DNA from: Gamarada debralockiae
Lineage: Eukaryota > Ascomycota > Leotiomycetes > Helotiales > Hyphodiscaceae
Length of the DNA: 64,000 bases
Direction of reading: 5' to 3'
NCBI GenBank assembly: GCA_002803225.1
Contig: NXFV01001258.1
Span: forward strand, 1-64,000
Of the stretch, positions 6,939 through 58,104 are shown piece after piece (the stretch's first letter is position 1; every line of letters starts with the position of its first letter). The translations under genes and the position numbers were made by a program. The notes beneath the pieces were generated by a model. The model was not told where the DNA came from, did no database searches, and saw only the letters and a program-made list of their open reading frames with translations.

Positions 6939-8280
6939 ATTGTTCATGGAATCTATTACCTGAGACGCTTTGACAAAGACTTCCAAGACGCCATTGGCCT
7001 TTGCCGACATTTGAACATTCACTTTCTCTGGATTGACTCCTTGTGCATCAAGCAGGATGATGAGGGGGACTGGAAGAACGAAGCCATAAGATTGGCGGAC
7101 ATTTACGAAAACGCCTTCTTGACCATCGCTGCCACAAAGTCTACTGAAGGCAGGGGCGGCCTTTGCTCTAAGCCAGACCAGCACATACGTGTATGATGGA
7201 CTTTATATTTGAGAATCGCCTCCCTTATTGCCAGGAAGTGCAAGACTCCAGCTAGAAGGATGGCCTCTACTTGAGAGACGATGGGTATATCAAGAACGTA
7301 GGATCTCTCGCCGCATGTTGTACTTCGGTTCGCACGAACTCATTTGGGAATATGAAGCCTTAGGATGAGTGAGAGTGGGTACAATGATGAGCCCCGACCT
7401 TTAAGGGACATCGGGACCCCCCCCCCCCCCGGCATAGCTTTAACTGATGGGAACAAATCCTAACATGAACATTGTAAATCAGTCATCACGGCTTCAACTC
7501 ACTTTCGAGAAGGACAAGCTGGTAGCTATTTCGAGTGTGTCGAAAGGGATCGGAATCCTGAGACTGGACGATCGTTATGCTGCTGGACTTTGGAAGAAGA
7601 CTCCTCTGCATGATCTCCGAAGTGATGCCACATCTTGGACTATCCAAGCGAGGCCTTCGACATTCTGTGCTCTAACAAGGTCGTGAGTCTCGGTCAGGAA
7701 TGGTGTTGCTTGGCGTGCCTTGGCTCACGACTTGGATGCTAGACAGAGCGAAAATGCTGTATGTATCGTACCAAGCAAACAACACTAGTCAGGTTTTCTG
7801 TGAAGCCAAAATAACACCAAGGCTTAGTGTAGTTCTTCGTGGCAGATTAATAGCAGCAAGGCTTGTGGCGATCGAATACGAGAATGACTCCAATGGGTTG
7901 AGTGGATCTTAACTGGAAGGCAAGGACGTTGACGTTACATACTACGGTACTGTGAAGCTCTGCTTAAAAGATGTTGGGTTTGCTGGTAATGTACTGCCGG
8001 TGGATTTTCAACCAGACCATTTGCTTCACAAACCCGGAAAGCATTAAGTTGCACCAGACTCAGAGCTGTTTGTGCTACCTCTCTTGTCTGGTTGTGGTGG
8101 ACCTCATGCTCTCGTACTCCGGAAGCTAGAAGGATCCGCTTTTTCTAGCGGATTGGCTTTATCGAATTCACCGCACAATCGACCTTTAATGTGGGTGGCG
8201 ACGACCCTAGGGAATATCCATTTGCGGCTTTTGATGCCTACCAGCGAAGTCTACCTGTGTCCACTATCACCATCGTCTGA
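6939..8280 (+). pseudogene. Decayed HET-domain gene (relic 2)
   Basis: The plus strand shows HET segments in order but broken into several frames. They are KDFQDAIGLCRHL then HFLWIDSLCIKQDD (about 6975-7050), WVYQERRISRRMLYFG (about 7275-7320), SSRLQLTFEKDKLVAIS (about 7485-7535), DDRYAAGLW (about 7570), VVLRGRLIAARLV (about 7835), GPHALVLRKLEG (about 8098-8133) and a C-terminal stretch ending with a TGA at 8278-8280. The frame is closed upstream by a stop at 6936-6938, so the start and the N-terminal Cys region are gone. A run of 14 C at 7417-7430 sits at one frame change. It lies next to relic 1 in opposite orientation and is a separate copy, not its continuation. Confidence 0.85.
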
Positions 8281-16361: not shown

Positions 16362-18540
16362 ATGCTAGCGACTGTGAACCAGATAGTGGTAATGGAGCGA
16401 CCCATCGAAAAATCCCGGGTTCTGAAGACCATGTTGTGGAATTCCCTCCTTCTAAATTTGTGCGTGTTTTGTCGGAATATATTCGACCACTGGTCTGAAT
16501 TATCAGCGGCTGGTGAAGGGAAATTCCAACATTGCAAGAACCGGTTCGCTTTGAGAGAATTGGCTGATGGGGGCTGTGGGCTTTGCATCCAATTTGTCAA
16601 AAGCGCGTCGAAGGGGTTCTTTGAAAGAAGGAAAGCCGAATTTGCAGCCGAGTCGGGCGAAAGTACCGTAAGCTTGCGATATTTGGAGGTGAAGGCCCGT
16701 TGCTGGACCTTACTTTAGCTCTACATGATTCAGACATAGAGGGCTTCTGTTCAGTTGACATGGCTCCTACGACCACTTGAGGTAAGTATGACACTCTGTT
16801 GTTTGAGTACCCTGATACTGAGGTGCATATGGCGCTGGTCTTAAATAGACCCCAAAAACTTCAATTCAAAATCTCTCTCTCTCTCCTTTCCTACAGAGTT
16901 TTACCCTTCTCTTATATCTACAGCTTGGCTCTAGCTATTCGGTTAATCCTGATAACCAGCACCTGATATTCAGCACCTGATAATCGATCCCAGCGGTCAA
17001 TCCCGAACCCCGGATATCACTGTACCTTCTAGACCTGTCAACACTAACTACTTACCGACCTCAATTTCGGACACTCAGCTAACTATTAAATCTTAGCATG
17101 CATTAGGATCCTCATTCCACTTCGTCAAGAAACACTAGAGCTGCTTTGCTGTTGTGCAAAGCCTGGCTGACAGACTGTCTCAAATCACACCAATATCGCA
17201 GTATCATGCAAGAGCGTCAGACTCTAAGTCGACTGCTCTTTCTGAGTGATGAAGGAATTCGACTATGTCTTTCTAAAGAATTAGAGGCTTGCCCGGAATA
17301 TGCTACGTTGAGCCATTGCTGGGTTCCGCTTCATTTCTTACTTTAACGAAGAACAACCTCGAAGCATTTCGAAGACACATTGCTATCGAAGAACTCACAA
17401 ATACTTTCCAAGATACAATTCTTATTGCAAAGTTCCTCGGCATCCAATATCATTGGATCGACTCATTGTGCATCATCCAAGACGACCCAGCTGACTGGCG
17501 CAGAGAATCAGCACTTATGAAAAATGTTTACGGTGCTTCGATCATCAATATTGCAGCCTCTGGTGCCAGTGATGGCAGTTGTGCATGTTTTTTTTTTTTT
17601 TTTTGATCGAAATAGCTCTTGGAGGTGTCAGATCCCAGTGAGATCGAGTGATGGGAGGCGTTATATGATTGTATTCCCGTTTGCTTCAACCAATCTCTAG
17701 ACCGGGCCTCATTCGCATCTGGGGGTTGGGTAATGCAGGAATGTATCTTGCCTCTCCGTTCTCTGCATGTCACAGAGCATGAGGTTTTTGGGGAATGCAA
17801 GCGGAAGGTTGCCTGCGAAAGTTTCCCTGACAAAATGTCTTCAGTAATACCTTTTCCTGTTTCAATTCAACGGCCAGTGAATGTAGTTTGGTATGAAATG
17901 GTGGCGAGATTCTCTGGTTGCAAATTGACCTTGACCAGAGATAAGCTACCTGCGGTCTTGGGGCTTGCTCGACATCTGCAGTACGAAGCAAAGGACGTAT
18001 ATTTCGCTGGCCTATGGGAAAGGCAGTTAGAAGTCCAGCCCTGTTGGAATGTTGTAGTTCCAGGGCATATATTATCACCCTACACAGCACCCAGCTGGTG
18101 ATGGGCGTCGCTTGATTGCAGTGTAGTCCTGACGACATGTTTTCCAGGTGAAGGGAAGGTGAGGAACACCAGGTTTGTGAACATTGAAAGAGTGGAGATC
18201 ACCCATGCACCGGCAGATCCCTTTGGAGAGGTTTCGGCTGCACAGAATCGCTGTGTTGTAAGCATTTTTTTCGTACTCAACTTCTGCCAGACCATATGAT
18301 CCGTGGCATACGTTCGATGGTCTTCTGCGGATGGGCTATTAGTATGACTGCGCTTTTGGATACTTTGCCAACGCTTACATCGTACCTGTCATCTTCGACC
18401 ATTCGTATAGGTTTGTTAGGTGCTTAATACTTCAGCGGACAGACATTCCCGCTGGACAGTATCAGAGACTAGATATGGCCAGCTGCTTTCAACAGGGTAA
18501 AGAAATTTTATACGATACCGATTACTGTGTTAAAGGTCAA
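16362..18540 (+). pseudogene. Decayed HET-domain gene (relic 3)
   Basis: A nearly full-length HET gene, broken by small lesions. The N-terminal Cys pair region LCVFCRNIFD and CGLCIQFV lies at about 16455-16605. The segment YATLSHCW (near 17305) continues one frame over as GSASFLTLTKNNLEAF, as though one G was lost from the TGGG run near 17322. LGIQYHWIDSLCIIQDD follows near 17440-17490. A run of 17 T at 17588-17604 disrupts the usual CFFDRN segment, an in-frame TAG occurs at 17698-17700, and WVMQECILPLRSLHVTE resumes near 17725. CKLTLTRDKLPAVLGLA (about 17920-17970) and a C-terminal stretch ending near 18540 complete the family order. The gene is dead as it stands, and the damage is mostly slippage-type. 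Confidence 0.87.
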
Positions 18541-22048: not shown

Positions 22049-23979
22049 ATGCGCAACATTGATCGTATTCCTGAAGCAATTGCAGATTTGGAAAGCCAAG
22101 AAGCCCCCAATGTCAAAGCTACTGCCGAAAAGTATGATGTCACACGCAAAACGCTTGAAAATCGATGGAAGGGCAAATCGACCTCAATGGAGGAGTGTAT
22201 CTCTGTCCATCGCCAGTGCCTCACCAACTCCCAGGAGAGAGCTCTAGTACAGCTTATAAATGAGCTTACTGACCGCAGAATGCCTCCGACTACTGCAATT
22301 GTTAGGAACTTGGCAGAGGAGATCAGGGGATGCGCAGTAGGAAAGAACTGGACAGCCTCATTTGTGCATAGGCACAAGCATGAGCTAAAAAGTCTGTACT
22401 TGAAGAGTATTGACAATAAGCGTGTCAAGGGCGAATATACACCTGCTTATGAGTTATTTTATGACTTAGTTGAGTACCTTTTTATATTGCTTTAGTAGTT
22501 ATATCATTTTGGACTTTACTGACCGCTCTTTTACTATAGCTCCTCGAAGCAATAGAAGAACACCACATTACTGCGGATAATATATGGAATGTTGATGAGA
22601 AGGGATTCTTGATTGGAGTAGGGGCTAAGATGCGAAGAATTATGTCCCGGGAGGCATATGAGCAAGGCAGATGTCGCCAGTCCGCCCAGGATGGGAACCG
22701 CGAGTTCATTACCCTCATTGCATGCGTCTCAGCCCTTGGCAACTTGATCCCACCAGCTTTACTCTATAAAGGGAAGTCTAGGGACCTTCAAGATACATGG
22801 GTGAAGGAATTAGAGGACGAGGATGACCTATTCTTTGGAGCTACAGAAAATGGGTGGACAAATGATGCATATGGCCTGAAATGGCTCCAGGAGGTCTTTG
22901 AACCCAGAACTCGGCCTATAAGACAAACAACTAAGCGTCTCTTGATTGTTGATGGTCACTCCAGTCATGTCAATCTTCGGTTTATCAAATGGGCTAATGA
23001 TCATGGAATTATTATCCTGATTTTACCTCCTCACGCAACGCATCGACTTCAGCCTCTTGACGTCAACTGCTTCCAGCCCTTGGCTACAAAATACCAGGTA
23101 AAGCTCGACCAATGGCTCCACAAATCTCTTGGCCAGACAAGTATATCGAAACGTAATTTCTATGAGATTTTCAGGCCTGCTTGGCTTGAATCTTTTACTC
23201 CAGCCAACATCCAAGGAGGCTTTGCCAAAACGGGCATTTGGCCATTTTCACCACCAATTGTACTTAATGCAATCAAGCGCCGGCCCCAGACCCCTCCTGA
23301 AGCTCAAGATGAACCTTCGAAACCCCCTCCTACTCCTATGACCTCGAAATCAATTCGACGGGCTCAAAAAGCATACAAAGCCAACCCGACAAAAGAGAAC
23401 CTTGCTGTTATCTTTCGGTCACAAGAACGACTAGCTGCACAACATGAGGTCGATAAACACATGAAGACAGGGTTATTAGAGACACTTAAGAATAAAAAGA
23501 AGAGAAGGATGCGTGGGAAGAAGTTGAATTTGGTTGGTGAGGAAGATAATGGAGCCCAGCTGTACCATTCTTCTAGGGTACGTGCTGCTCTTGCCTACGA
23601 AGCAGAAAAAGAGGCAATAGCAGTAGCAGAGAAGGCTGATAAAGAGGCAAAGAAGGCACAGGCTACTAAAAATAAGAGAAGGAAGGCAGAGGAGGCTCAA
23701 GAAAGGGCTTTACAGCGTCAGGTAGCGAAGGACTTGAAGGCGAAAATAGTGGCTGAAAAATTGGCTGAAAAGGAGACTAAAAAAAGGCAGTCAAAGCTGC
23801 TAAAGAAGAATGAAAAGGAGTCCTTAATAGTAGTATTGCCATATAAGAAGACTTCTAGCACTTCTACGAAGGCAGTAATATTTGCTACGGAAGTTGAGGT
23901 AGTCACAGAGGGGGAGGGGTCCGAAATAACCCAAACACGGACCCGGAAGATTAATTTACCCACGCGCTTTAAAGAGTAA
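22049..23979 (+). CDS. Transposase of the Fot1/pogo element (HTH, CENP-B-type HTH, DDE_1)
   Basis: DNA-cutting and joining enzyme of 619 residues in two exons, 22049..22468 and 22540..23979. The 71-nt intron runs GTTGAG...CTATAG. The N-terminus has a helix-turn-helix region (about residues 1-60) and then a CENP-B-like second HTH (about 65-130, with WTASFVHRHKHELK). The catalytic triad reads as three Asp: IWNVDEKGF (Asp159), LIVDGHSSH (Asp278) and HRLQPLDVN (Asp314). The last spacing of 35 residues suits the Fot1 group. The C-terminus (about 440-619) is a Lys/Ala/Glu-rich coiled-coil-like tail. No stop or frameshift is present, so the protein could be active. Confidence 0.93.
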
Positions 23980-24145: not shown

Positions 24146-24650
24146 TTGAATGAAAAGCTTTTTTTCAACTCTGGACAATTCCTTTGTCTTTTGAGTTATG
24201 TGCTTTCTTTGTAGAAATTTCCGCTGAAACCATAAATTGAGTTGACCCAATTCTGTGCCGAATTCATTCCGAAACACTACTGGTTCCTTTGAGTGATAGA
24301 GAAATTTCTGTTCATATTCTGACATATGTAGAGAATATTTCAAATTATTGAAGGAACAAAAGGATTCAGGAGAAGGATAAACACGAGCTGTGATTTTCCA
24401 CTGGCAACGTTCTGCGCTAGCCCAATTTTATGCCTACTGTAACATCCCTGTAACACCCCGCCAAATAGCGCCCAAGCTCCGGACGTCACTTCCTCCTAGC
24501 CACTCCTCCAACTTCAACATCTTCCTTCACTACCAACTACCAACCTCTCTCGTTCTCTCAATATTGATCGCCCTTGCAGTTTCGATACTTCAATGGCATC
24601 ATAATCCCTCACCCGGCACAACCCAGAGCTTCACGCTCTCTTCAATCAAC
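24146..24650. other. Intergenic stretch before the M28 protease
   Basis: This is probably the promoter and 5' leader of the downstream protease gene. The coding frame stays open back to 24390 but lacks an ATG and family similarity there. I see no other feature. Confidence 0.4.
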
Positions 24651-27600
24651 ATGGGAACCACGAAATGCGTTAATCCGTTCTCCTTCCTCCCCATGGCCGT
24701 CACCCTCATTACGGTCGTGGTCTATCTCGGAACCTTTGTCCCTCTTCTGGTCATCCACGAAACTGTACCGTCAGCTCCGACAAACCCCACTCTCTACCGC
24801 GGTCTCAACCTCTCTGAAGCTTGGCTTGACCTCGCAGAGCTCACTATTGCTTACCATCCTTTCAACAGTCGGCGGAACGACGAAGTCAGAGACTGGCTGC
24901 TAAGGAGAATTGAGGAGATATTGGGTGCAAATGGTGTTAAATATACGACAGAAGGTCTGGCGGTCACACACACGCAGACCCAAGAGCAGTCTGAAGTCTC
25001 AGCAACATCGAATGAAATCGAACCCTTCGCAACCGAGAGCCAAGAAGAACTCCGAGTCAGACTGGCATCTCCTCCAGCGACAATCTTCAATGATCTCGTT
25101 GCCAATTATACAAGCACAGCTCTTACCAGCATTGGGGTTAGTGGCAGACGGGCTGGCATCAGCACATACTTCGAAGGGAGCAACATAATTGTCTACATTC
25201 GTGGTTCTGAAGACGAGGATGGAGAATGGTGGGTTCCGACACCTTACACACCTATAACTCATGGCCAAGGTGGAGTTATGGTCAACGCGCACTTTGATAG
25301 TGTTTCTACGGGATATGGAGCTACAGATGACGGGGTGGGCGTGATCACTGCGCTGCAGTTGATCAAGTATTTCACAACACCAGGCAATACTCCGAAGAAA
25401 GGTGTGGTTGCACTCTTCAACAACGGTGAAGAGGATGGCCTCTATGGAGCCAAGGCATTCTTGTCCCACCCAATGGCGACCTTTGTCCATACATTCCTGA
25501 ATCTCGAAGGAGCTGGCGCAGGCGGAAGGGCTACACTCTTTCGGAGCACAGATACTGAAGTCACTCGAGCGTATGCGAGAGCAAGACATCCATTCGGCAC
25601 GGTCGTCAGTGCTGATGGATTTGCATTGGGCTTCGTGAGGAGCGAGACTGATTATGTGGTGTTCCGCGCAGAAGGATACCGTGGGCTTGACGTGGCTTTC
25701 TGGGAACCGAGAGCACGATACCATACAGATCAGGATGATGCGAAGCACACATCGAAGGACTCCCTCTGGCACATGCTTTCCGCGTCAGTGGAAACAATGA
25801 AATATTTGACCTCCGATACTGGTAGCCGATTCACCGGACCTCGCGGAGACAATGCCACCGACAAGGTCAGGAACGGTCAGGGTAGCGACGGAGTATGGTT
25901 TGATCTCTTCGGCGAGGTCTTTGCAGTTTTCTCTTTACGGACCCTCTTCGCCTGGTCATTGTCCCTCTTGATTGCCTCGCCCTTGATCTTAATTGTCATC
26001 ACTGTCCTACTTGTTCGATTCAAAAAGTACTACTTCTTCACCGGCGCAGTCAAGCCCGACGATGAAGAGGGCGAGTACATCCCTCTGGAAGGATGGCGGG
26101 GGGCTTTCCGATTTCCTGTCGTCCTGATCATTTCCTCGGCACTCACTATAGGAGCTGCATTCTTGATACGGAAGATCAACCCCTTCATTGTATACTCCTC
26201 TCAGTATGCAGTGTGGGCGATGTCATTCAGTCTATTTTTCGCCGCATTTTGGTTCATGATGGCTGGCTGCAACTTCATTAGACCATCGGCATTGCACAGA
26301 GGCTACACTCTCATATGGATGTTTGCATTCGGCTGGGTGCTCCTTGTAGCCGTGACTGTGGCTGAGGACCGCTTCAAAATCAGTGGTGGCTACATGTTTG
26401 TCATTTACGAATCGGCTATCTTCCTGGCCACCTTTATCAGTCTGTGTGAGCTTTTTGCACTTCCGTCAAAGTCGGATATCATTGATGAATATCAAGGTGA
26501 GCATGATATCAGACACGGACTCGATGCTGTTCCTCACTCGGAGGCTACTGTTGCGCAGCAGCTTGATGGAGAGGACGGACATTATGTTTCTGATGCGACT
26601 GAGACAACACCTCTTGTTAGAGCTGGCAATACTCGGGGTTCATTATTCGGTGCCACGTTCGCACGGTATGGCCAGGCAAGAGCGCTTGAAGCGACGGATC
26701 ATATGCACGATGATGTCCTCCACAGAGATCATGCATTCGGTCATGAGCAGAGGTGGTCGTGGGCTATGCCCACATGGACTTGGCTCCTCCAATTCCTTCT
26801 CATCGGTCCTTTCATTATCATCGTTCTCGGACAAGTCGGCCTTTTACTCGTCACTGCAACAGCTCAGACTGGCACCGACGGAAGTCCTCTTCTTCTGCCT
26901 TACCTGATCGTCGCTCTTTTCTCGATCCTACTACTCTTGCCTGTGGCACCCTTCATACACCGCATAACGGCTCAGCTTCCAACCTTCTTGTTTCTGGTTT
27001 TCATCGGCACATTGATCTACAACCTAGTCGCCTTCCCCTTCTCGGCAAACAACCGCTACAAGGCCTACTTCCAACAAACCGTCGATCTAGATTCCGGTAT
27101 CAACCACGTCACCCTTGTTGGAATCGAAGAATACATCCGCGACATCATAACATATATTCCAAGTGCTTCGGGCCAAACCATCAACTGCACGAAGAGACCA
27201 GCGATTCGTGACGGTTTAAGTTTCTGCTCATATGAAGGCATCACACCCAAAGTCGTCGACAATGTCAAGGACGGTATCCCTCCGGAGAATGGTATGGCAG
27301 ACTGGCTTACCTATAACGTTACACGCGCCAAGGGGGAAAACAAAGCCACCTTCCATATTTCCGGCCTCGAGACCAAAGCTTGCATCATCCGCTGGGACGA
27401 ACCCTTCACAGCTTTCCACGTCCACGGCGCAGCGAGCAACGATGGGAAGTGGGCAGACGTACCAGACACCGGAAGCGACCAGATCAAACTATGGCATAGA
27501 GATTGGAATCGCGAGTGGGTGGTCGATGTTGAATGGCCAGTCAGTCAAGGCAAGAAGGAGGGCGAGGAAGGAAGAAGTGGACGCGTAGTCTGCTTGTGGA

Positions 27601-27725
27601 GCGATCACAACATGCCTGGTACGATCCCAGCTCTGGACGAGGTACAGCAATTCGCGCCAGCTTGGACGAGTTTTGTGAAGTTGATGGATGGATTGGTTGA
27701 GGGTAGCAAGGCGTTTGTTGTTTAA
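24651..27725 (+). CDS. Vacuolar membrane protease, peptidase family M28 (Pff1-like)
   Basis: Predicted zinc aminopeptidase-type protein of the vacuole membrane, 1024 residues, in one exon. The sequence shows an N-terminal membrane anchor (VTLITVVVYLGTFVPLLV). The M28 metal-binding residues then follow in order: NAHFDSVSTG with DDGVGV (about residues 212-228), NNGEEDGLYG (about 257-266), LNLEGAGAGG (about 283-292) and YHTDQDDAKHT (about 356-366). The C-terminal half holds about eight further hydrophobic membrane segments and a luminal-type end domain, as in the family. The length agrees with fungal homologues (about 950-1050). I chose the ATG at 24651 because the family begins close to the NPFSF motif, and upstream codons have no Met. 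The Fot1/pogo element ends about 500 bp upstream, possibly within or near its promoter. Confidence 0.93.
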   Translation: MGTTKCVNPFSFLPMAVTLITVVVYLGTFVPLLVIHETVPSAPTNPTLYRGLNLSEAWLDLAELTIAYHPFNSRRNDEVRDWLLRRIEEILGANGVKYTTEGLAVTHTQTQEQSEVSATSNEIEPFATESQEELRVRLASPPATIFNDLVANYTSTALTSIGVSGRRAGISTYFEGSNIIVYIRGSEDEDGEWWVPTPYTPITHGQGGVMVNAHFDSVSTGYGATDDGVGVITALQLIKYFTTPGNTPKKGVVALFNNGEEDGLYGAKAFLSHPMATFVHTFLNLEGAGAGGRATLFRSTDTEVTRAYARARHPFGTVVSADGFALGFVRSETDYVVFRAEGYRGLDVAFWEPRARYHTDQDDAKHTSKDSLWHMLSASVETMKYLTSDTGSRFTGPRGDNATDKVRNGQGSDGVWFDLFGEVFAVFSLRTLFAWSLSLLIASPLILIVITVLLVRFKKYYFFTGAVKPDDEEGEYIPLEGWRGAFRFPVVLIISSALTIGAAFLIRKINPFIVYSSQYAVWAMSFSLFFAAFWFMMAGCNFIRPSALHRGYTLIWMFAFGWVLLVAVTVAEDRFKISGGYMFVIYESAIFLATFISLCELFALPSKSDIIDEYQGEHDIRHGLDAVPHSEATVAQQLDGEDGHYVSDATETTPLVRAGNTRGSLFGATFARYGQARALEATDHMHDDVLHRDHAFGHEQRWSWAMPTWTWLLQFLLIGPFIIIVLGQVGLLLVTATAQTGTDGSPLLLPYLIVALFSILLLLPVAPFIHRITAQLPTFLFLVFIGTLIYNLVAFPFSANNRYKAYFQQTVDLDSGINHVTLVGIEEYIRDIITYIPSASGQTINCTKRPAIRDGLSFCSYEGITPKVVDNVKDGIPPENGMADWLTYNVTRAKGENKATFHISGLETKACIIRWDEPFTAFHVHGAASNDGKWADVPDTGSDQIKLWHRDWNREWVVDVEWPVSQGKKEGEEGRSGRVVCLWSDHNMPGTIPALDEVQQFAPAWTSFVKLMDGLVEGSKAFVV

Positions 27726-34714: not shown

Positions 34715-37700
34715 TTATTTCATGCTCTTCAAAAACCCATCCAAATCAAACTCCTCTTCATATTGCTTATCATCCCACAACTCCCCCAAATCATCCAACC
34801 ACCCCTTCTTTCCCTTCTCCCGTACCTCCCCGGTGGCATCAACCATATCCTCCTCTCTCTCTCCCTCCCCATTCAGCGTCGGTTTATCGATCCCTTCTGC
34901 GGTATCACCTAAATTGAAGAGGTCGAGAATTTGGTCGGTTTCCATGGTTCCTAGGCCCGCGTTTTGTTGGTTCACTACTGTAGATGCTACGTCGATCTTG
35001 AAGCGTTGGAGTCTGTTATTTTGTAGTTAGTGGGTGATATGGTTGGTTTGGGGAGGAAGGGAGAGGAATGGGAGGACATACGACATAATTTTCTCCTCCA
35101 AAGTCCCCCTAGTAATCAACCGATAAACATTAACAACTTTCTTCTGTCCAATTCTATGCGCCCGATCCATAGCCTGCAAATCCTTCTGCGGATTCCAATC
35201 ATGCTCGACGAAAATAACCGTATCAGCACCAGTCAAATTCAATCCCAAACCTCCCACACTGGTCGTCAGCAATAAACAATCATAAGACGGATCGGAATTG
35301 AATTTGTTAACGATGTCTTGGCGCTTCGATGCGTCGACTGAGCCATCCATGCGGAGATATTGAACTGAGGGAAGCATTTTCTTGAGGACGTCGTTTTGCA
35401 CCATGTCCAGCATCTCTTTCATTTGGCAGAAGATGAGAGCACGGTGGGGTGAGACGTAGGTGCTTTCGGTCGTGAGGTCATTTTCGGAGGAGGGCTCGAT
35501 ACCGATTCCGCAATCTACGAGCAAGTCGCGCAGCGCCGTAAGTTTCGGTGCATGAACGGGGTCGCGGAGACTGGTGCCTTGTTTGGCGAGGAGACGTTGG
35601 GTTTCTTCGTATTGCTTGTGGCCTTCCTTCATGACTAGTGCAGGTGAATTGCAGAGTTTGCGCATGTATTGCAAGGCTTGGAAGATATGTTGTTTGGATT
35701 CCTTGTCCCCGGCCGAAGCCTTCTCTGCGAGAGTCTTGCCCTCTTTCTTGGTGAAGTCTTCGAAGAGCTTCTTTTGGAGGTCACTGAGATCGCAGTAGTA
35801 GTTCTGCAGGATCTTGGGTGGTAGATCGTCCAGAACTTCTTCTTTCAGACGGCGAAGGAGGAAGGGGAGGACTTGTTTGTGCAAGGCTTCGATGGCGAGA
35901 GCACCGGCTTCTTGTTCTTTGGAGGACGATTTGCTAAATCTGCTGGCGGCGATGGGCTTTGCGAATCGATCGAGGAACACCTTTTCGGCGCCAAGGAAAC
36001 CGGGCATGAGGAAGTCGAAGAGTGACCAGAGTTCCAGGACATTGTTTTGGATAGGGGTACCGGAGAGGATGAGACGGTGGTTGCTAAGGAGCTTCTTCAC
36101 TGCGAGGGTGACCTTGGCTCTTGGATTCTTAATCAAGTGGCCCTCATCAAGAACCAGGTAGTTCCAGTTGAGTGGGGTAAGGACATCAGAATCGTTTCTG
36201 CAAATATCGTAGGAGGTGATGACGATATCAGTCTTGTCAAGTTGATCTCGCAAACGTTGGCGATCAGCAGGAGGACCAACATAAGCAGTGCAAGTAAGGA
36301 ATGGGGCGTAGGTATTGATCTCCTGCTGCCAATGTCCGGATAAGGTGGGAGGGCAAACGATGAGTGATGGAAGTCTTCGCACATCAGGTGCTCCAGTCTT
36401 CTTGAACTCCTCAGCCCGATTATGGTGATCACTAGCCACGATACACAACGTCTGTAATGTCTTGCCGAGACCCATGTCGTCGCAGAGAATGCCATGAAGA
36501 TGGTACTTGTTCAAGAAATTGAGCCAGTTGACACCTTCTTGTTGGTAGGACCTGAGCGTAGCCTTGATTGCGACTGGAATTGTGAATGGCTCGACTTTAT
36601 GAGGATCAAGCAACTGAGCGATGAAAGTTCGTTCTCGGTCTCTGCCTTTCAGGAGTTCTACCGACAATCCAGGAGGATCCGGAATTCCTGCCTCAAGTGG
36701 CACGAGCTTGACGAGAGTTGCAAAGGTCGTCGTCGCAATCAGTCGAACATCGTTGTCGGAATCGCTCATACGGCCAAGAACGGGCACAATGAGAAAGATG
36801 ACATATGGTAAGATATTGTCGCCCATAACATGGATGAGATGATAGACTGATTCTATGGCACCTTGTCGGAAATTGAGATCGACGGGGTTGTTGATAGAAG
36901 GCAAGACCTTCTCGACGAGCATAGTCATACCGTCCACCGTGATGACACTGCAAATTGTGGCAAGACACTTTGCGGCCATGTATCGGAAGACTGAAAGTTC
37001 GGAATGAAGAGCTTTGATGACCAATGGTAGCAAGTGCATCACAAAAGGATGAAGCCCTTTAGATAAGGTAGGTGTCAAAGCTCGGAGGACTGACATTCCA
37101 TCAATTGCAGCTTGGCCTGCCTCCTTTTCTGGGTCCTTGGCGTCTTCCGGCAGGTCTTCAGCGAAAGCATATTGCAATGGGTCCTCCATGAGAGACTTCA
37201 GCGTAGGGACCTTCTCGAGAAGCTCTGCACCGAAAATACTAGACAGTTGTTCCAATGCATCCTTTGCACCTCTCCGCATGATACGAGCTTCCTTTGTTTC
37301 TCGTGCAAACTTGGCGGCATCCGGATGATCTCGGCGATCCTCTTCCTTTCGGAGGGATAGAATGTTGCTTGTGAAAACCACATTTGGGGCGAACTCGGGC
37401 GTCTCTGAAGTGTCAACGCAGCTGAATTTGGCGAGGTTACCAACCACCTTCTGTGCAGGTCCAGATCGACCACCTTCAGCGAACAACTCGACCAATCTGG
37501 CCACAGCAGCAGCCGAGCGCTGTTGCAACTCAACGTTCTCTTCCTTCTTAATGCTGTCCATCATTCCCTTGATGATGTGCGAGGGCTTCTTTGGCGAGAC
37601 TTTCATAGATACCAAGGCACTGGCGGCAGCAGCCTTGATACGTATATCTCGTTGTTCCTTGATGTTCTTCGCATTATCGATGACTTCGACCACATTGTCA

Positions 37701-40575
37701 CGCGCTTCTGAAAGTGCTTGCGTTGCTATCAATCGCTGACCGGCTGGAAGTGCCTTCTTCAGCCTGTCGAAGTCCTCGTTGACGCACTTATCGGCAGTGA
37801 GTATTGAGAATGCATCTGGGCCAGCTTCAGGCTCGCCTTGGACGACTACCGCGAGCGCTGGTAGTCTACTTTGTGACACCTTGCCCACGTCTCGGAAGGT
37901 GTTAAGAAGTTGAGAGCATTGAGCACGAACAAGTTGTGTGTAGCTGACGAGATCGCGGTAATGTAATGGACGGTCGCTTTCGATGATCTTTTGGAGAAGA
38001 TTGACAAATCGTGATGATTGGTCTTTCGACGTGCAATTCTTTGCATACTCGTCGATCATGATGGCGGCTGCGAGCTGGGTAGATGAGAAGGTGGAAGTCA
38101 AGCCGGGGACTATGCTAGCGTCGTAGGCTTCAAGGGCGGTTGGAGGTACGAGAGCCATAATAAAGCCCATAGCCCGAGCTGCAGAGATTCGAGATCTGAT
38201 CAAGATGTCCATGCCGACCAAGTCGACATCGCCCTGCATCATGTGACCGTCAACATCATGTGATGAGGTTGAGGTCGTTGGCTCCACAACCTTGGTCGAC
38301 TTCCGTCGTTTCTTTGCAGGTGGTTCTGTTGTGGCATTTGGTGATACTGGTCGAGGATTGGCTGGTGCAATACCGCTCGACATGGAATATGTGCTTCCAG
38401 ACGGCTTCTGGAAGAGTGTTGCGTTCATAGGTAATGGATGTCGCGAGACACCGATGGGGTGAAGAGCAAGCTCCATGAGAGGATTCACATGTATCGAGAA
38501 CTCACTAGCCAACTCCTCGGGATCCTTGGAAAGGTATTTAACCAGTGCAGACCAGACTTGAAGAGAGAGATTCAAGGTATCTTGATTGCGCTCAACCAAA
38601 ATGTTCTGGAAGATCAGGCGCAAAATCTTGCCATTCAGCCAGTCACGAGTACCGTCGCCTTCAATATTGACGAATGTCAATAAAGCTCTCAAGACGGCGG
38701 ATCGAACGGATGTGATGGTGTGGCGGAGGAAAGGGTACAATCTGGGAACCAGCAAGGCAAATGACTGCTCTGAATCTCTGGCGGCATTCTTCTTCATCGC
38801 TTCCAAAACTTCGGGGAAACTGCAAAGTTTGGCAAGAAGATCCATGATTTGGCCAGTACTTGCACTGAGATCGTCGCCAAGATTTGACAGGCATTCCCAT
38901 ACAATGTTTATCAGGCCATCCAAGGCTGCCGGTCGCAAGTTGACGAATTCCTTCGCAATGGGGATGAGAGTAGCGGCACTGACTGATCGCACATCATCAT
39001 CCCAGTCTCCGAGACCTTTCATAACAGCAGCGATAACTCCGTCGATCAGATCGCTGTCGCTCAGGAGAAGATCATTTCGAACCGCCACCAAGTATCGGAG
39101 CCCAATCATGCCTCCGTGGCAAACGGCCCACGCAGGTCGGTCGAGACCGAGATCTTGTTGCATCACCATTCGGAATAAAATTCGGTGTACTGAATAAACA
39201 GCTGCAGGAGGGAGGTGGATAAGTAGAGCGCCCAGTGTTTGTCCGACGGTCTCTCGGATAGGAGCAACCACAGTATCAGAGACGTAGTCGCCGAATCGAT
39301 CAAGCATGAATACGCAGCACAGTCGACAGGCAAGATCATCGAGCCATCGTTGATTGAGGACAGTGTTCTCTGCACAAGTCTTGCCCCGCTCACGTCCCGC
39401 TCCTCCTCCGTGGACTCGAATGATTTCCCGAAGTCCCATCGCTGCACCATGTCGAGTTTCCCACTGTGGATCGAACAGATCGACCTTGAGGAAGTCGCAT
39501 AGTCGTTCATAAGGCCATTCACTTCCTTCTTCCTCCTCAGTCGTTTCCAGTTCCGATTTGATGGGTATGGCAGGGCCTTTGAATTCCGAGACAACCTTCG
39601 AATCCTCATCCACTTCTCCATTTCTCTCCAAAGTAAAGTAGTCCTTTACTTCTGCTCCTGAGGCATCATCGAGTCCAATGTCAGACATAGTCGTATCCCC
39701 TCCAATCTCAACGGTGCTCTGACGTCGAATCGACAAATCCACCAGTCTATTCTTTGCACCAGCATGCTGGGCTTCTCGTTTTCGCTTTCGCTTTAACTGA
39801 TTGAGTTGTCTCGCACTCAAGCCAACTTCTTCGGATGGTGTTGAAGGTGTGGGCATCTGTGGGATAGTAGCGTCGGTTCCATTTGCAGAGATCTGAGGCG
39901 TTGCTGCACCATTCTTCAAAATCGGGAAATCGATTTCCATATCCTCCTCAAAATACTCCCCAAGTAAACCAAGTCGGCCAGCGAGAGTCTTCTTTTGGTG
40001 AGCGAGGCGTTGTGCAGGATCGAGAGAGGCCAGGGTATAATCGATCTCCTTGCCTCCGCCTCGAAGTAACTCTTTTCCATACTTGAGGATTGATGGAAGG
40101 TCGAGAGTGTTGAGACTTAACTGGCCGTTGGCAAGAGGGGTGTCATCAACCACTTCTTCTTTCTTGATGTAGAATCCATTTTCTTCCTTCTTCGGCTCAT
40201 CCTTGACTGGCTCGTCGGCAGCATTCGGGTCGTACTTTTCGGCATTTTCGACAATTCCTCCTAACGCCTTCGATGCAGCGATTCGGGTGTCCCATGTTTT
40301 GTGACGGAGGTATGGCACAACTCTGGTGAGTAGATTGAATAGCTCTTCGGGATGAGCTTTCTGGACATCCGCTAATTGTGCGGCTGCGGTATTTCGAATC
40401 AGTTGCGTGGAGCCTGTCTCCAGTAGCCTATGAGGGTTGTCAGTTAGAGTCGGGTCGAGGGGTTGAGTGAAGGAAGAAATACTCACGTTACGAGGCGATC
40501 GAGTCTATTTGCACGTGATAATCAGCTGGGTATCCACAAAATGCGGCCGCATGAACAAACTCACCTTGAAGCCAT
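34715..40575 (-). CDS. mot1: Mot1/BTAF1, SNF2-family ATPase that removes TBP from DNA
   Basis: Nuclear TATA-binding-protein-associated ATPase of 1890 residues (yeast Mot1 is 1867). Four exons: complement(34715..35012, 35082..40427, 40487..40504, 40565..40575). The first two exons are only 11 and 18 nt but restore the conserved start MASRLDRLVTLLETGSTQ. Introns are GTGAGT...AATAG, GTGAGT...CATAG and GTATGT...AACAG. The N-terminal two thirds is HEAT-repeat material that grips TBP. The SNF2 core begins near residue 1290: DDMGLGKTLQTL at about 1325, LDEGHLIKNP at about 1435, LILSGTPIQNN, and the helicase C motif MDRAHRIGQKKVVNVYRL near the end of the large exon. The last exon gives TDQILDLFNLGDT and WLDDLGELWDD, the family's C-terminal bridge. 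It is divergent from the kinase gene, with 1.4 kb between starts. Confidence 0.96.
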
Positions 40576-50955: not shown

Positions 50956-53900
50956 ATGGACATACCTTCGACAGAAACAATTGCGCAAGAGCACATTGCA
51001 CAAATCAGAAAGTCCAAGGGTCTTGACGGGCCCGACACGAATACGTCTGACTTGGAGGCTGCTCTGATCATGTGAGTATTTACACGGGACTGGGACCATA
51101 TGCCCATATGCAACTCATATTCATTGATATTTTTCCAGACTCTCCGAACAACTTTACCAGAAGTCGACTCATTTCTTGCTAGAACTGATTCAAAATGCCG
51201 ACGACAATACGTACAAAGTTCAGGAGCCTACGCTCAACCTCACCTACTCTCGTCGGACTTTACGTCTTGACTGCAATGAGATCGGGTTTGGGAAGAGAAA
51301 CGTTGAGGCCATTTGCAAGATTGGTCGAAGCACCAAAGCTGGCATAGGGAATGCGACAAGATACATTGGAGAAAAAGGAATTGGATTCAAATCTGTTTTC
51401 AAGGTTTCCGACGTAGTGTGGATCACTTCTGGACATTACTCTTTCAAATTCGACAAAAAGGAAACATTGGGAATGATTGCTCCAATTTGGGAGAAGTTTC
51501 CCCTTCCTCTCTTGCCAGGATACACGTCGATCCTCTTGCAATTATCGCATGATTATGAACCCGGAGAACTCATTACTGAGATCACATCCTTGGATCCAAG
51601 GCTTTTGATCTTTCTTCGAAAACTCAGACAAGTCAATCTCAAGAGCTTGGATCAAGGTGGGAAAGTCTGGAGAAGTACCTTGCGACGACATGACGTATCT
51701 TTTGGGGCGAATGGGGACAATGCTATAGAATTATGGCACAATGTAGCGTCCTACTCACTCAAGACCACAAGTTACCAAGTCAGTGGACTTCCGCCTGAGC
51801 CAAAACGACCAGGTTGCACGCATTCCGAGATTCTTTTGGCCTTTCCAATAACAAGGAGCGGTGAACCTTGGATTCAGTCCCAAAATGTGTATGCATTTCT
51901 GCCAATCCGCGATTATGGATTCAAGGTAAGAATTCCTGTTACTCGTGTTGCCCAAAGTCTGTGGATAGTAAGTGAGAAAAGGACCACTTAGTAGCGCGTC
52001 AATCACTTTTCTATCGAGGACTTCTAGGCAGCACAAGTACTCTAAAGTCGTTTAGACATTCTACTGACGTCTCTAGTTTCTACTTCAAGCCGATTTTCTA
52101 CTTATTGCCAGTCGTGAAGATATCGATACTTCTTCGCCATGGAACCAGAAATTGCTTGATGCTATTCCACAAGCGTTCCTTAACGCCGTAGAAGAGTGCA
52201 ATAAAGGTGATTTACGTCATACCTGGATGCGTTATCTACCAAGCAGGGCGCTGCTATCGGATTTTTTCGAGGGTCTCGAATCTTCTATACTAGAACTCTT
52301 GGCCAGAGCACCAGTAGTAGAGAACTTCGCGGGAAACCTTACACCACCGTCGGAGCTCAGGGTTGTCCCGGAAGACTTCAGGGATGAAAATGGCGTGCCG
52401 CTGATCTGTACTGGCCGAACATTATCCACTTACGTGTCACAAAACTATTCTACCGAGGACATTCTCGACCTCAACCGGATTGGAGTCCAGAATGTTTCGG
52501 CGGAAGAGTTTCTGACGGATCTAAAGCTTTTTATTCTCAAGAGCCAGCGAGCCTTCCAGGAAATGCCCAACGTCTGGCATTCACGTCTTGCAAATGCCCT
52601 GTCACGAATGATTTACGATGAGAACATCAAAGCCACCCTTTCTGAACTGGAGATTGTCCATCTACGCGATGGCAGGTGGGTGTCTCCAAGTCGGGAAAAT
52701 GTCTGTTTCTCGAATCCTTCTGATTTGATAACAGTACCGGGAGGGTTGGAGATCCATGAGATCCATCCAGAGGTAGCAAATAATCATTTCCAACGGTACC
52801 TACTTACCCTTCTAGGAGCGAAGAGCATCAACAAAGACCTCGTGTGCGATATCATTATTAGCATGCATGGAGACCGGGAATTCAACTCCAACGATCCATC
52901 AGTCGAACACTTGATAGCACACATAGTTTTCCTCTACCGTACAAATTGGAAGAACACTTACAACCACGACCTGTGGTTTGTTACAGAGTTCGGTTCAGTT
53001 CGCCGTGGATCCGAGCTATACTTGGATTTGGAGGAGTCCCAACCTTATTCCGCAACGGCCCTATTCAGGGAAAACAGAGAGAAATTTTCATTCCTTCACA
53101 GTAGCTACTTTGAAGACTTCTCATCTTCAGACTCAGATTGGACTTCCTGGCTCGTTAGAAATCTCCACGTAGCAGAGTATCCTCGACTCGTGGCTCATGC
53201 CACTGATCCCGAGCCAATATTGTCCCAGAATTTTCAATTCCTTCTTGACGCAGGTTTACAGAAGCAGATCCTGCTACTATTTAGGGACAATTGGGGTCAC
53301 TACGCTAAATGGATCCGCCCCGAAAACGATTCGACTGAGGGAACAGACCTGATCGAAAAGCTGTCCTCGATGCGGGTGCCTTGTTGTGGTGGAGGCGACG
53401 CACCACTGAATCGAACAATCCTACCTCTGGGCGATATAGCTCAGGGAAGTATGGATTCTATGTCGTTTCTCGACATACCAGAGCCAGAAGATGCTCGATG
53501 GAGATACTTGCGTCACTTCGGAGTTGTCGTTGAAATGGGCCCAAGTCCATTCATCCAATGCCTTCGGCAGCTGAAACTGTCTGGAACCTCTTTAGAGGAA
53601 GTCTCAGAGTTGTACAAGCAGATTCAAGGCCAATCCAGTCGCCATGGTGAAATTATAAGGCATTATCCTTTTCTCAACTGTCTATGCCAGAAAGTTGGTC
53701 AATTTGTAAGAAATTGACGGCCGTACCCCTGTAGACTTTGTATCAAGCTTCTGTATGCTTACATAGAATGTATGCTTGTGGCTCAACGCTTAATGTCGCT
53801 AATTGTTTCTATCATTGGATGAGAAACGTGGACATTGCTGCTTCAATTCACAGTTTGGTGATGGGAACAAGGTGTGAGCTGACTGAGTAAATGTAGAAGC

Positions 53901-56900
53901 ACCTTTCGAACTGAGAACCTGGTGTTCGTTCCTATGGCCGAACTGGGAAGCCAAGAAAACTGGACCGACATAAACATATGCGTCTGGGACGGCCCAAAGT
54001 GTCTTAGAAAAACACCCTGCTTGAAGGATTTCTACTCCGGGCACCATCAGTTGATTGAGTTCTTCTATGTCACGCTTGGGATCCCTAACGCTTCCTGGAA
54101 GACATTGATAGAAGAAGCTCAACATATTGAAGCGTCTGACAGCATCGAGTACATTTCACAAGTATTTTTCGCTCTCAGCACCACCCTGCAGAAGGACGAC
54201 GATACCCCTAAGGTTACTTATGATGACGACATTATTAAGATGCTTACTCGAGCCCGTATCTTTCCTATTGAGACCCAAATTAGTGGAATTAGTCCTTCTA
54301 CCTTCCATCACCTCTCTAGTGCTCAACAACGCGAGATATGGTTCATTGCTGATCGATTTCACTTGAGGCAGAGTTTCGAAGGCTTAGTGCCTTTGTTAGC
54401 CTTGGGTGTGGAAGACATTGAGAAGATTCGCCCTTTGATTAAGAAACTGAACATGGAACACCGATTGTTGTCAGAGGTAGCACAAGGGTTGCCAAAAGCG
54501 CTGGGCGCAAGCAGAGCATGTCCGAAATATACCAGTTTGCTTCGCGCGAAGTCAAGGTTTATTGCAAGGTACGTCTTCCGCAGCAATTTATGACAGGAGA
54601 TGGCGCAACCAGTATCTTTTCCAACCGAGGAGAGATAGATCTTCATCTTCGAAGTTGCTAATCTAAAGTCTAGAATTCTGCCAGACACGTTGATCAACAA
54701 ACAGTTGATAATGGCGCAGCTACGGAAGATAGAAGTATATAGCGCGGAGAAGGTGACTGTGGAGTGGTCGATAAAGCCAAACAGTTCTCATCATATGATT
54801 ATGGGTCGTTCAGATTCTGGTCGCGTTAAACTGACACTTGTAGGGAACGTACTTAAGGTTATTCTCAGAGAGAACGATGTCGATGCATCCCGGCCACCCC
54901 TGGAACTCCAAGAAGCGATGACAAAGTTTTGCGGAATTACGGACCCAGTACATGTTGCGATGCTCTACTGGATCCTGGCAGAACAAGACCTTAAGGAAAT
55001 TGATGATGTTCTCCAACGACGGGGAGTCCCTAACAACGTCCCAGAGTTTGACAGCTTGATCCGCAATTCAGTTATTGGTGAGACGTTAACATTCTCTGGT
55101 CTGGATGGGATGTCTGATGACACTGATGCCGATAATGCCCATGGACGACGGTATACCGGTCGAAAAGGGAAATACGGCCCGGAGTCATCCTCAAGTAAAC
55201 AGGAATCTTCAGATGCTGTGCATTCCTTCGTCGAAAGGTTCAATCTTGCAAATTCCTTTAAGAACAGGATTGCTCAATCCTGGCAGGATGCCGAACCAGA
55301 AACTATATTGTCTCATATATGCAGGTTGGAAAACATGGACCCTTTCTTGCTCTTGCCCCAAAAGAATGATGTATGGAGCCAACACATAAGAAGAGGTGGT
55401 GGATACCCGGATGACTTTGTGGGAATACTTTTCGACAATGGACAAGACACAACCCATAATAGCTACATCCCAAGCTGTGCTCAGACATTTCCAGCGATAG
55501 TTGCAGTTTCAGGCAAGGGCCACATCCATGTTAAGGTGTCAACAGCGGGGAAAGTGATGACTGATGAAGAGACACTATTTGCGGGCGAATTATATGTATG
55601 CCACGAACCTGATCAATGACTCTGTTTCTGACTTTCATCTCAATATAGTTCTCGAAACTACTGGAGAAACGCATGGGTCATTCTTATATACCAGCGTTTC
55701 ATTGGACAAGCCGCCTACGGGGGAAAGCCGGGCTTACACCATACAGGAGTAATGACAAGGCACGATCAGCATTCACCATTGAAGACAAATTTGGAAGCTT
55801 CACACAACTATTGGTCCGAAATGGATACAGGAAAGCCAGCTCATGGCTGTCATATCCTACCTACCATATTGAAGTCAACACGTCGGAGGAGGGACTTCTT
55901 TCGGCATTTTCGCTGAGTCCTTACCAAGTTAATAAAGTCAGTCTCTTCCATTTTATAAGCCGAGGCATTAGTGTATTTAATCTTTTATCTTTTATCAAGC
56001 TTTAAGGCTAATCGTGATGCAGGCTTGGAAATTCAATATGCAGATGCGATCAAATATCAATCCCAATGATGTTTTCGTACTTATCCGAATCTGTAATATT
56101 CGGACAGAACCTGAACTCACTCTTCTGGTAGACCCATGGCAACTGCACGCGGAAGGTGTGTTGTCCTTGACAGCAGAATCTCATTACATAGCAGAGTTTA
56201 TCGAACTACCTCCTACTATTCGCCTAGACTCGGTAGAGTTAAACCAACCCGGAAAGCAAGCGACTGAGAGGCGTTTTGGGGGGATTCTTCCAAGAAGAAG
56301 AAAGGTTTCTCAGAATCAAATTGTTACAAGGGAAGTTGATCCGGCATACTCGTACAAGCCACTCAACTTTGACGATGTCCGTCTTCTCGAGCTATTTCCT
56401 GGAACTGGAGACATGCCGATAAAGGGAGCCTTACATCGTACACCTTTGGAATGGGCTGGGAAATATTTTGCTTTGTCTTATGTTTGGGGTCCCGCTCTGA
56501 GGCCATTCGATATCCAGACTACCGATGGAAACATTCCCCTCACAGGTGCTTTGCATTCAGCCTTGAAACGACTTCGAGACAAGGTTGTTCCTATTTTACT
56601 TTGGGTGGATGCAGTATGCATTAATCAGGCCGATGATCACGAAAAGATTGTCCAAATACGGCTTCTGGGGAATGTTTTTCGGAAGGCAGAAAAAGTATTT
56701 GCCTGGGCTGGTGATGAGAAAGACAACAGTAATCTTGCGGTGGAAGCTCTGGTGCAGATACGGACGCTTGCTGTCAAACCAGACGAATGGCCTAAGAACT
56801 TGCCGCCCAAGCCATCTACTTGGACTGGAAATACCCCCGCTCCTGACGACACTATTTGGGCCGATATTGGCAAGTTTTTTGAACGCGACTTGTTCCAGCG

Positions 56901-58104
56901 TGTTTGGGTGGTTCAGGAACTTGTACTCGCTAGTAATGTCAGAATCCTTTGTGGAGACTGGGACGTGAGCTGGGATGACATCTTCGCGGCTCTCGAAACC
57001 TGTCTAAACAGCTCCACTGCCATGGGACATTCGAAGCCGCAGTCACGAAAGTTTGTCTCTCAAGCAAAGCCTGCCTATGCTCTTGCTTTGACGAGAAAGG
57101 TGTTCAAAGATCCAAGATTGTCCCAAAGATTTAATCTGTTGTCCCTGCTTGATATGTTCGCTCATACCGATGCCACGATAGAGCGTGACAAGCTCTTCGC
57201 TTTACTCGGGCTTGCCTCAGACGCGGAGAATGAGATCTTCGACCCAGATTATTATTCCCCTATTGAAGTGGTTATCCGCAGATATGCGAGCGAGTTCGTG
57301 CAGAGGGGTAATGCTATAGATCTACTATACAGAGCAGGAACTTCGAAAGCGTACGAATTTTGTTCTTGGATCCCAAAATGGACTGGGAGGGAGCCTTGCC
57401 GGACGATCTCCACGTGGCGTGGCGCAAAAGGCACCTTCTCGGCTGGGGGCACATCCCGTACGAAGGCTAGGCTCGACAAACATAGGTTGCAAGTCTTAGG
57501 TGCGAAGGTTGACGTTATTGCTGAACTCTCACCAACTACTACAAAGGAGCAGGATATCATATCAGTGGTCAACCTCATCCATGCATCAATCGACAAAATC
57601 AATAACTACCCAACGGGTGAGTCATGCAGGGAACTGAAGCTGAAAGTCCCGATTGGCAATGCCATGACCCCATGCACAGACGACATCGGAACCTTGGGAG
57701 AGATTATAATACAAGCCAAGGAAGCCAACCAAGCCTTCAACTGGGCAGAAGTGTATTCCGCCATCGCCTCAGTCCAAGAAATGGTGAACTTCCTAAGAAC
57801 ACCACGAGATGCTCGCGAGAAGAGCTGGAAATATTGGACCACGGCGGCCGCATTTGCCAAACGATTATCGAACGGCAGGTTTTGTACTACAGAAAGGGGA
57901 TATATTGGATTTGTTCCTTATGATGCCGAGCTTGGCGATGAGATATGCGTGGTTTACGGAGGGGTGGTTCCGCTTGTGTTAAGGAAGATTGTGGCGTCTG
58001 GGGAGGCGTACAAATTGATTGGGGAGTCGTATATTCATGGTATTATGTATGGTGAGGCACTTTTGTCTGGTGAGATCCAAGAGAAGAATTTCATTCTCGT
58101 TTGA
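50956..58104 (+). CDS. Sacsin/NO VEIN-type ATPase - NOV_C (DUF3883-like) - HET fusion protein
   Basis: Predicted 2158-residue protein. Seven exons: 50956..51071, 51139..51925, 52077..53705, 53916..54568, 54674..55595, 55649..55936 and 56023..58104. The N-terminus is a GHKL (HSP90/sacsin-like) ATPase: N-box ELIQNADDN (54-62), Asp83 in DCNEIGF, and YIGEKGIGFKSVF (114-126). A long middle region follows (about 300-1370; GFKFLLQADFLLIASRED at its start). The NO VEIN C-terminal-like domain (about 1375-1525) shows TYHIEVNTS, SLSPYQVNK and NDVFVLIR...LLVDPWQLH. The last exon then continues without a stop into a full HET domain: YFALSYVWG (about 1613-1621), LLWVDAVCINQADD, FQRVWVVQELVLASN and ERDKLFALLGLASDA. 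No ATG lies between the two modules, so a separate HET gene is unlikely. I infer an ATPase-regulated cell-death or non-self-recognition protein. The 53706-53915 intron is the weakest join. Confidence 0.82.

Follow-up and report, generated by a model that had tools for sequence, protein, structure and literature searches.

Fungal HET domains can trigger cell death on their own and bear a remote likeness to TIR (PMC4986451, PMC10197012), and often no other domain can be identified in a HET protein (PMC10197012). Where that literature describes HET in fused form, the switch is of the NACHT type, as in the HET-carrying NOD-like receptors (HET-NLRs) of the HNWD type (HET-E, HET-D, HET-R). In animals, sacsin-type ATPases are reported joined to a cell-death domain, DEATH or TRADD-N (PMC3710099, PMC8195603), and among bacteria Tiamat is a defence system whose mechanism is given as unknown (PMC12926258, PMC10482375). 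The gene described here lies at 50956-58104 (+) of a 64,000-nucleotide stretch of Gamarada debralockiae (contig NXFV01001258.1, positions 1 to 64,000; the window), and its seven predicted exons would encode 2,149 amino acids in the order GHKL/sacsin ATPase, middle part, NOV_C (DUF3883), whole HET protein (Table 1). From the sequence we favour, with moderate confidence, a single gene for a large immune-type protein composed of a Tiamat/NO VEIN-type switch, a dead nuclease and a HET output.

How does this fusion compare with the known systems? The preliminary description of the window saw an ATPase plus HET and drew an analogy to NLRs. That architecture stands, and the fusion does share with the HET-NLRs an ATP-binding switch and HET in one protein, but the ATPase is GHKL rather than NACHT or NB-ARC, and HET is C-terminal, unlike the N-terminal HET of HET-NLRs (PMC4986451). 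What had been missed is the homology to bacterial anti-phage TmtA with its C-terminal nuclease slot. A full-length Pfam scan of the fusion protein (E<=10, although most matches above 0.1 are lost to HMMER's filters) lists HET and SACS and no other family; NACHT, NB-ARC, WD, ANK and TPR were not found in it, nor were DnaJ, HEPN or ubiquitin-like domains. Sacsin has repeated SACS with DnaJ and HEPN, whereas the fusion protein has one SACS stretch. The animal sacsin-like fusions also couple a sacsin-type ATPase to a cell-death domain, but they come from another kingdom, with another death domain, are reported on the basis of domain architecture, and have no NOV_C named in the accessible parts of their papers (PMC3710099, PMC8195603). 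HET with NO VEIN, sacsin or DUF3883 was not found in the literature searched, in which most subscription papers and all bioRxiv preprints are missing. The preliminary description knew of no described system with this layout; by analogy with the animal fusions, which it parallels, it is not wholly unprecedented.

The ATPase part and its kinship with Tiamat

Three profiles bear out the earlier claim of a GHKL ATPase at the gene start: on the ATPase exon, Pfam SACS (PF25794) scores 2e-12, the NCBIfam sacsin N-terminal model 1.2e-16 and PADLOC TmtA 1.1e-50, and the last also matches exon 3 (4.1e-19). We take TmtA to be the Tiamat anti-phage protein (Millman et al. 2022). Against the fusion protein TmtA reaches 1.7e-80 over residues 11-671 (eight models), and by blastp homology to a proteobacterial relative covers residues 33-1171, about 1,140 amino acids of ATPase and middle part. 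These matches identify the front part, at the level of sequence, as a NO VEIN/Tiamat-type GHKL ATPase. Its motif columns are kept in common with the five paralogs aligned. In a tree of the ATPase region (66 rows, without L120 and L121 and with unspliced stretches within some fungal rows), the nine fungal copies form one group (100/98), and the fusion copy stands beside the paralogs L025 and L026 (99/95). Against PDB sequences the best E for the GHKL exon is 0.013, followed by weak Hsp90 and sacsin matches; the top five rows are pieces of Shank1, which we took as chance.

Might the ATPase be a chaperone instead? A sacsin-like folding or stress switch, of the kind suggested for animal sacsin, would then silence HET and free it under proteotoxic stress, with no immune sensing. 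The ATPase is of the sacsin/Hsp90 type, and a suicidal unfolded-protein stress response has been proposed for sacsin-DEATH fusions (PMC3710099). However, the likeness to TmtA, over 661 amino acids, exceeds that to the sacsin profile (2e-9, 101 amino acids), and the DnaJ, HEPN and ubiquitin-like domains are missing from the Pfam result, so that we consider a chaperone-gated HET improbable.

What stands at the C-terminus of the prokaryotic relatives? The best 80 of 235 were taken (L043-L122), and removal of 21 rows that were partial or shorter than 1,000 amino acids left 59 complete ones. Within their last 500 amino acids Pfam finds NOV_C in 26, HNH_2 in 4, Mrr_cat in 3, NucS_C in 1, and seven additional families in one member each; these counts may overlap within one member. 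Judged by these families, the C-terminus of prokaryotic TmtA relatives is a nuclease slot, and the NOV_C share agrees with the earlier statement that DUF3883 occurs in bacterial defence genes. The varied ends suggest a modular ATPase-plus-nuclease family. The fusion gene differs from Tiamat in being fungal and having introns, in having lost the nuclease residues, and in carrying HET behind NOV_C.

The same genome holds eight other NOV/sacsin-type ATPase genes, in line with the claim that such ATPases exist as separate fungal genes. Seven of the eight have the same domain order through NOV_C, and the two read share the place and phase of intron 3. The paralogs differ from the fusion copy in that the seven with NOV_C retain D-ExK and that HET was found in none of the fetched stretches (0/8; home-made HET profile from nine sequences, reaching about 2.6-4.1 kb past NOV_C in seven loci, the gene end of L031 being unplaced). 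NOV_C was found by tblastn with no pattern in five paralogs, and in L029 and L030 first through an ExK pattern and then with a masked profile whose seed contained all seven. L031 (G000:C324:6200-16100) is a NOV-type ATPase for which the search gave no NOV_C end; it is either truncated or ends differently. A PF13020 search of the organism's own genome gave 0 matches; an intron that divides the domain is the probable cause. Two other sacsin-type ATPase genes (G000:C669:47866-52802 and G000:C936:43423-43797) exceed the NOV type in their SACS profile scores.

The NOV_C domain and its join to HET

The NOV_C-like sequence reported before HET is present, but its loss of nuclease residues had gone unnoticed. 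While the Pfam scan lists no PF13020 match in the fusion copy, tblastn matches both halves to L025 (2.5e-12), and a profile built from relatives, its catalytic columns masked, recovers the domain at residues 1355-1514 (2.4e-15). It is internal, with HET after it, so it is not C-terminal. Where the conserved triad is D, E and K, kept in 24/24 bacterial NOV_C and 7/7 fungal copies read, the fusion copy has A, E and N, and a C-terminal nuclease with D-ExK residues is thus absent from it. The profile seed had been picked by a D..ExK pattern, which makes its 22/22 with these residues circular; the masked search gave 24 bacterial matches, only L087 and L099 of them beyond the seed (the Pfam count is 26), and the bacterial alignment has 23 rows, one of the 24 being omitted. 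That NOV_C has a nuclease fold is claimed because a modelled bacterial NOV_C shows likeness to PD-(D/E)XK nucleases in a second look (VIA) at Foldseek's own matches, because of the D-ExK residues, and because DUF3883 is entered as a novel restriction endonuclease domain in Table 1 of PMC3710099; PMC10609329 has it as a presumed Type II restriction endonuclease. The fusion copy can be described as a nuclease-fold domain in which two of the three conserved charged positions are lost, and its nuclease end looks dead.

Exon 7 is one open frame of 707 codons that spans the end of NOV_C, a linker of about 54 codons and the entire HET protein, and the continuous exon proposed earlier for 56023-58104 is therefore found as described. 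Because this single open exon carries both the NOV_C terminus and the complete HET, the join is firm, and we take it as real. Is there nevertheless room for two separate genes, or for an assembly misjoin, so that no NOV_C-HET protein exists? This genome does contain free NOV genes as well as free HET genes, and a Met lies 17 amino acids ahead of the HET core, within the HET leader, where three of nine paralog loci have a Met at <=24 amino acids besides one farther upstream. However, the join falls within an exon, and the linker is hardly long enough to hold the end of one gene and the promoter of the next. In seven of the nine closest HET paralog loci read, a Met stands 43-76 amino acids ahead of the core (L039 has none in its frame, and in L041 the nearest is at 88); no start was found at this distance in the fusion gene, whose other in-frame ATGs, 56038 and 56044, are 142 and 140 amino acids before the core and both within NOV_C. 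The junction DNA (55900-56700) is single-copy within the assembly, which is evidence against a repeat-driven misjoin. The worry about the NOV_C/HET border, raised already in the preliminary description, was on these grounds rejected, and we hold two genes or a misjoin to be highly improbable.

The HET domain is complete, as had been stated: Pfam HET (PF06985) matches with 7e-27 over model positions 1-146 of 146, at 95 bits against a curated cut-off of 22.5. HET paralogs align as far as query residues 536-550 of 550, where the conserved C-terminus of these proteins lies, and the 394 amino acids after the core compare with 302-440 in eight of nine paralog loci, the ninth frame being broken by a stop. 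The fusion thus resembles the free-standing HET genes in having a complete module of similar length past the core; it differs in that those read are separate genes, the best-scoring one with 29% identity. PDB sequences gave weak matches to the HET exon only (best E 0.43), taken as chance. Exon 7 against viral contigs gave one pattern match, in which no relative was confirmed.

Intron 3 and the integrity of the gene

Start and stop (ATG 50956, stop 58104) had been given correctly, the motifs quoted then stand at their positions in the window, and the model has a single stop, at its end. Introns 1, 2, 4, 5 and 6 have GT-AG borders and preserve the frame. Treating the gene as one unit is sound at the NOV_C/HET join, but a problem at intron 3 had been missed. 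At this place a phase-2 GT-AG intron is present in the paralogs L025 and L026, and the fusion gene reads AG|GCATTA. A GC-AG intron of 237 bases brings it back in frame, and the spliced border would read HGEIIR|STFRTENLVF, compared with LVK|SEFETNPLVF and RVK|TDFETYRLVF in L025/L026. Used with the same acceptor, the GT donors at 53579 and 53612 also keep the frame, but they are weak and would take away a larger part of the exon. The GTAAGA at 53706 is a good donor whose only in-frame partner is a poor GAG acceptor before 53916.

Could the fusion then be decaying? It would be a young pseudogene or a splicing-defective allele, with the ATPase severed from HET, and an internal start could yield no more than a HET fragment preceded by half of NOV_C. 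The AG|GCATTA donor at a conserved intron place, the flaws of the alternative sites and the missing NOV_C residues agree with this, and a shorter product could begin at ATG 56038 or 56044. Against it, the remaining exons are open and in frame, exon 7 included, five of six introns are canonical, the ATPase motif columns are retained, HET is complete, and intron 3 has several in-frame GT-AG options, each with one poor site. Thus we regard decay as rather unlikely, and a connection of the ATPase to HET across intron 3 as likely but not certain.

Several results weigh against the immune-type fusion that we favour. An ideal splice-site pair is absent at intron 3 (~53660-53896), and unless this intron is spliced, translation would end at 53717, which would part the ATPase from HET. 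An old domain may simply be decaying, which would account for the missing D and K. Foldseek by itself returned nothing at E<=0.001 for the NOV_C model (best 7.8e-3), and the single-sequence HET model, at a predicted local distance difference test score (pLDDT) of 38, gives no fold evidence for HET. A table in a 2025 review (PMC12881547) enters HET activity as ND; its text elsewhere gives hydrolase activity for HET/TIR modules.

Proposed function

If the immune-type fusion is real, its ATPase-switch and HET-effector logic fits as follows. ATP binding would close the GHKL part in an Hsp90-like manner. The ATPase or the middle part might sense the trigger, such as foreign nucleic acid or protein, or a mismatched partner following cell fusion. 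The HET domains would then be brought together or released, in place of nucleic acid cleavage by NOV_C, and would initiate cell death, while NOV_C might stay as a binding or structural part. The role would probably be non-self or antiviral cell death, and its origin an effector exchange in which the nuclease was lost and HET gained. More tentatively, and with rather less than even confidence, Tiamat-type antiviral ATPases may have been kept in fungi and the nuclease slot re-armed with HET, giving a suicide protein for incompatibility or antiviral defence that is gated by GHKL and involves no NLR. If true, this would be a direct effector exchange between a bacterial anti-phage system and fungal programmed cell death. 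A second type of ATPase switch before HET would broaden the definition of a fungal immune receptor, and the fusion connects fungal NO VEIN proteins with bacterial Tiamat. A testable rule follows: where a C-terminal nuclease is dead, a new effector should be sought.

Gene model and genomic setting

Table 1. Predicted parts of the fusion gene, in window coordinates
Feature	Position	Strand	Remarks
Exon 1	50956..51071	+	start codon; phase 2 junction with exon 2
Exon 2	51139..51925	+	GHKL (Bergerat-fold) ATPase: ELIQNADDN / NEIGF / GEKGIGFKSVF
Exon 3	52077..53659	+	TmtA-like middle part; end set from intron of paralogs L025, L026
Intron 3 (unsure)	53660..53896	+	AG|GC donor
Exon 4	53897..54568	+	middle part
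Exon 5	54674..55595	+	middle part, to first helix of NOV_C (LFAGELY)
Exon 6	55649..55936	+	first half of NOV_C (DUF3883); A for conserved D, EVN for EVK
Exon 7, first part	56023..56178	+	second half of NOV_C (DVFVLIRI, LLVDPWQLH)
Exon 7, linker	56179..56340	+	about 54 codons, open, without in-frame ATG; limits by eye
Exon 7, HET protein	56341..58104	+	leader, HET domain (~56464-56919), conserved C-terminal part (GYIGFVP, LIGESYIHGIMYGE)

The assembly comprises 54.3 Mb in 1,112 contigs, and 150 HET matches were scored of 770 candidates, an abundance as expected for a filamentous fungus. Pfam HET occurs in three of the 29 other open reading frames of the window that were scanned, with matches at 5147-5608 (-) (1.3e-24) and 17277-17603 (+) (7.5e-17); the home-made HET profile also marks 6939-7193 (+) (6.4e-15). 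A DDE_1 transposase lies at 22540-23976 (+) (1.4e-24), and a Tc5-type transposase DNA-binding domain is in one of the 29 open reading frames, among the matches listed. The setting is a gene-rich, normal-looking region. Its neighbours include a PFF1-type vacuolar protease at 24381-27722 (+) and, at 35030-40504 (-), an SNF2 helicase with HEAT repeats and DUF3535, which we take to be Mot1-like.
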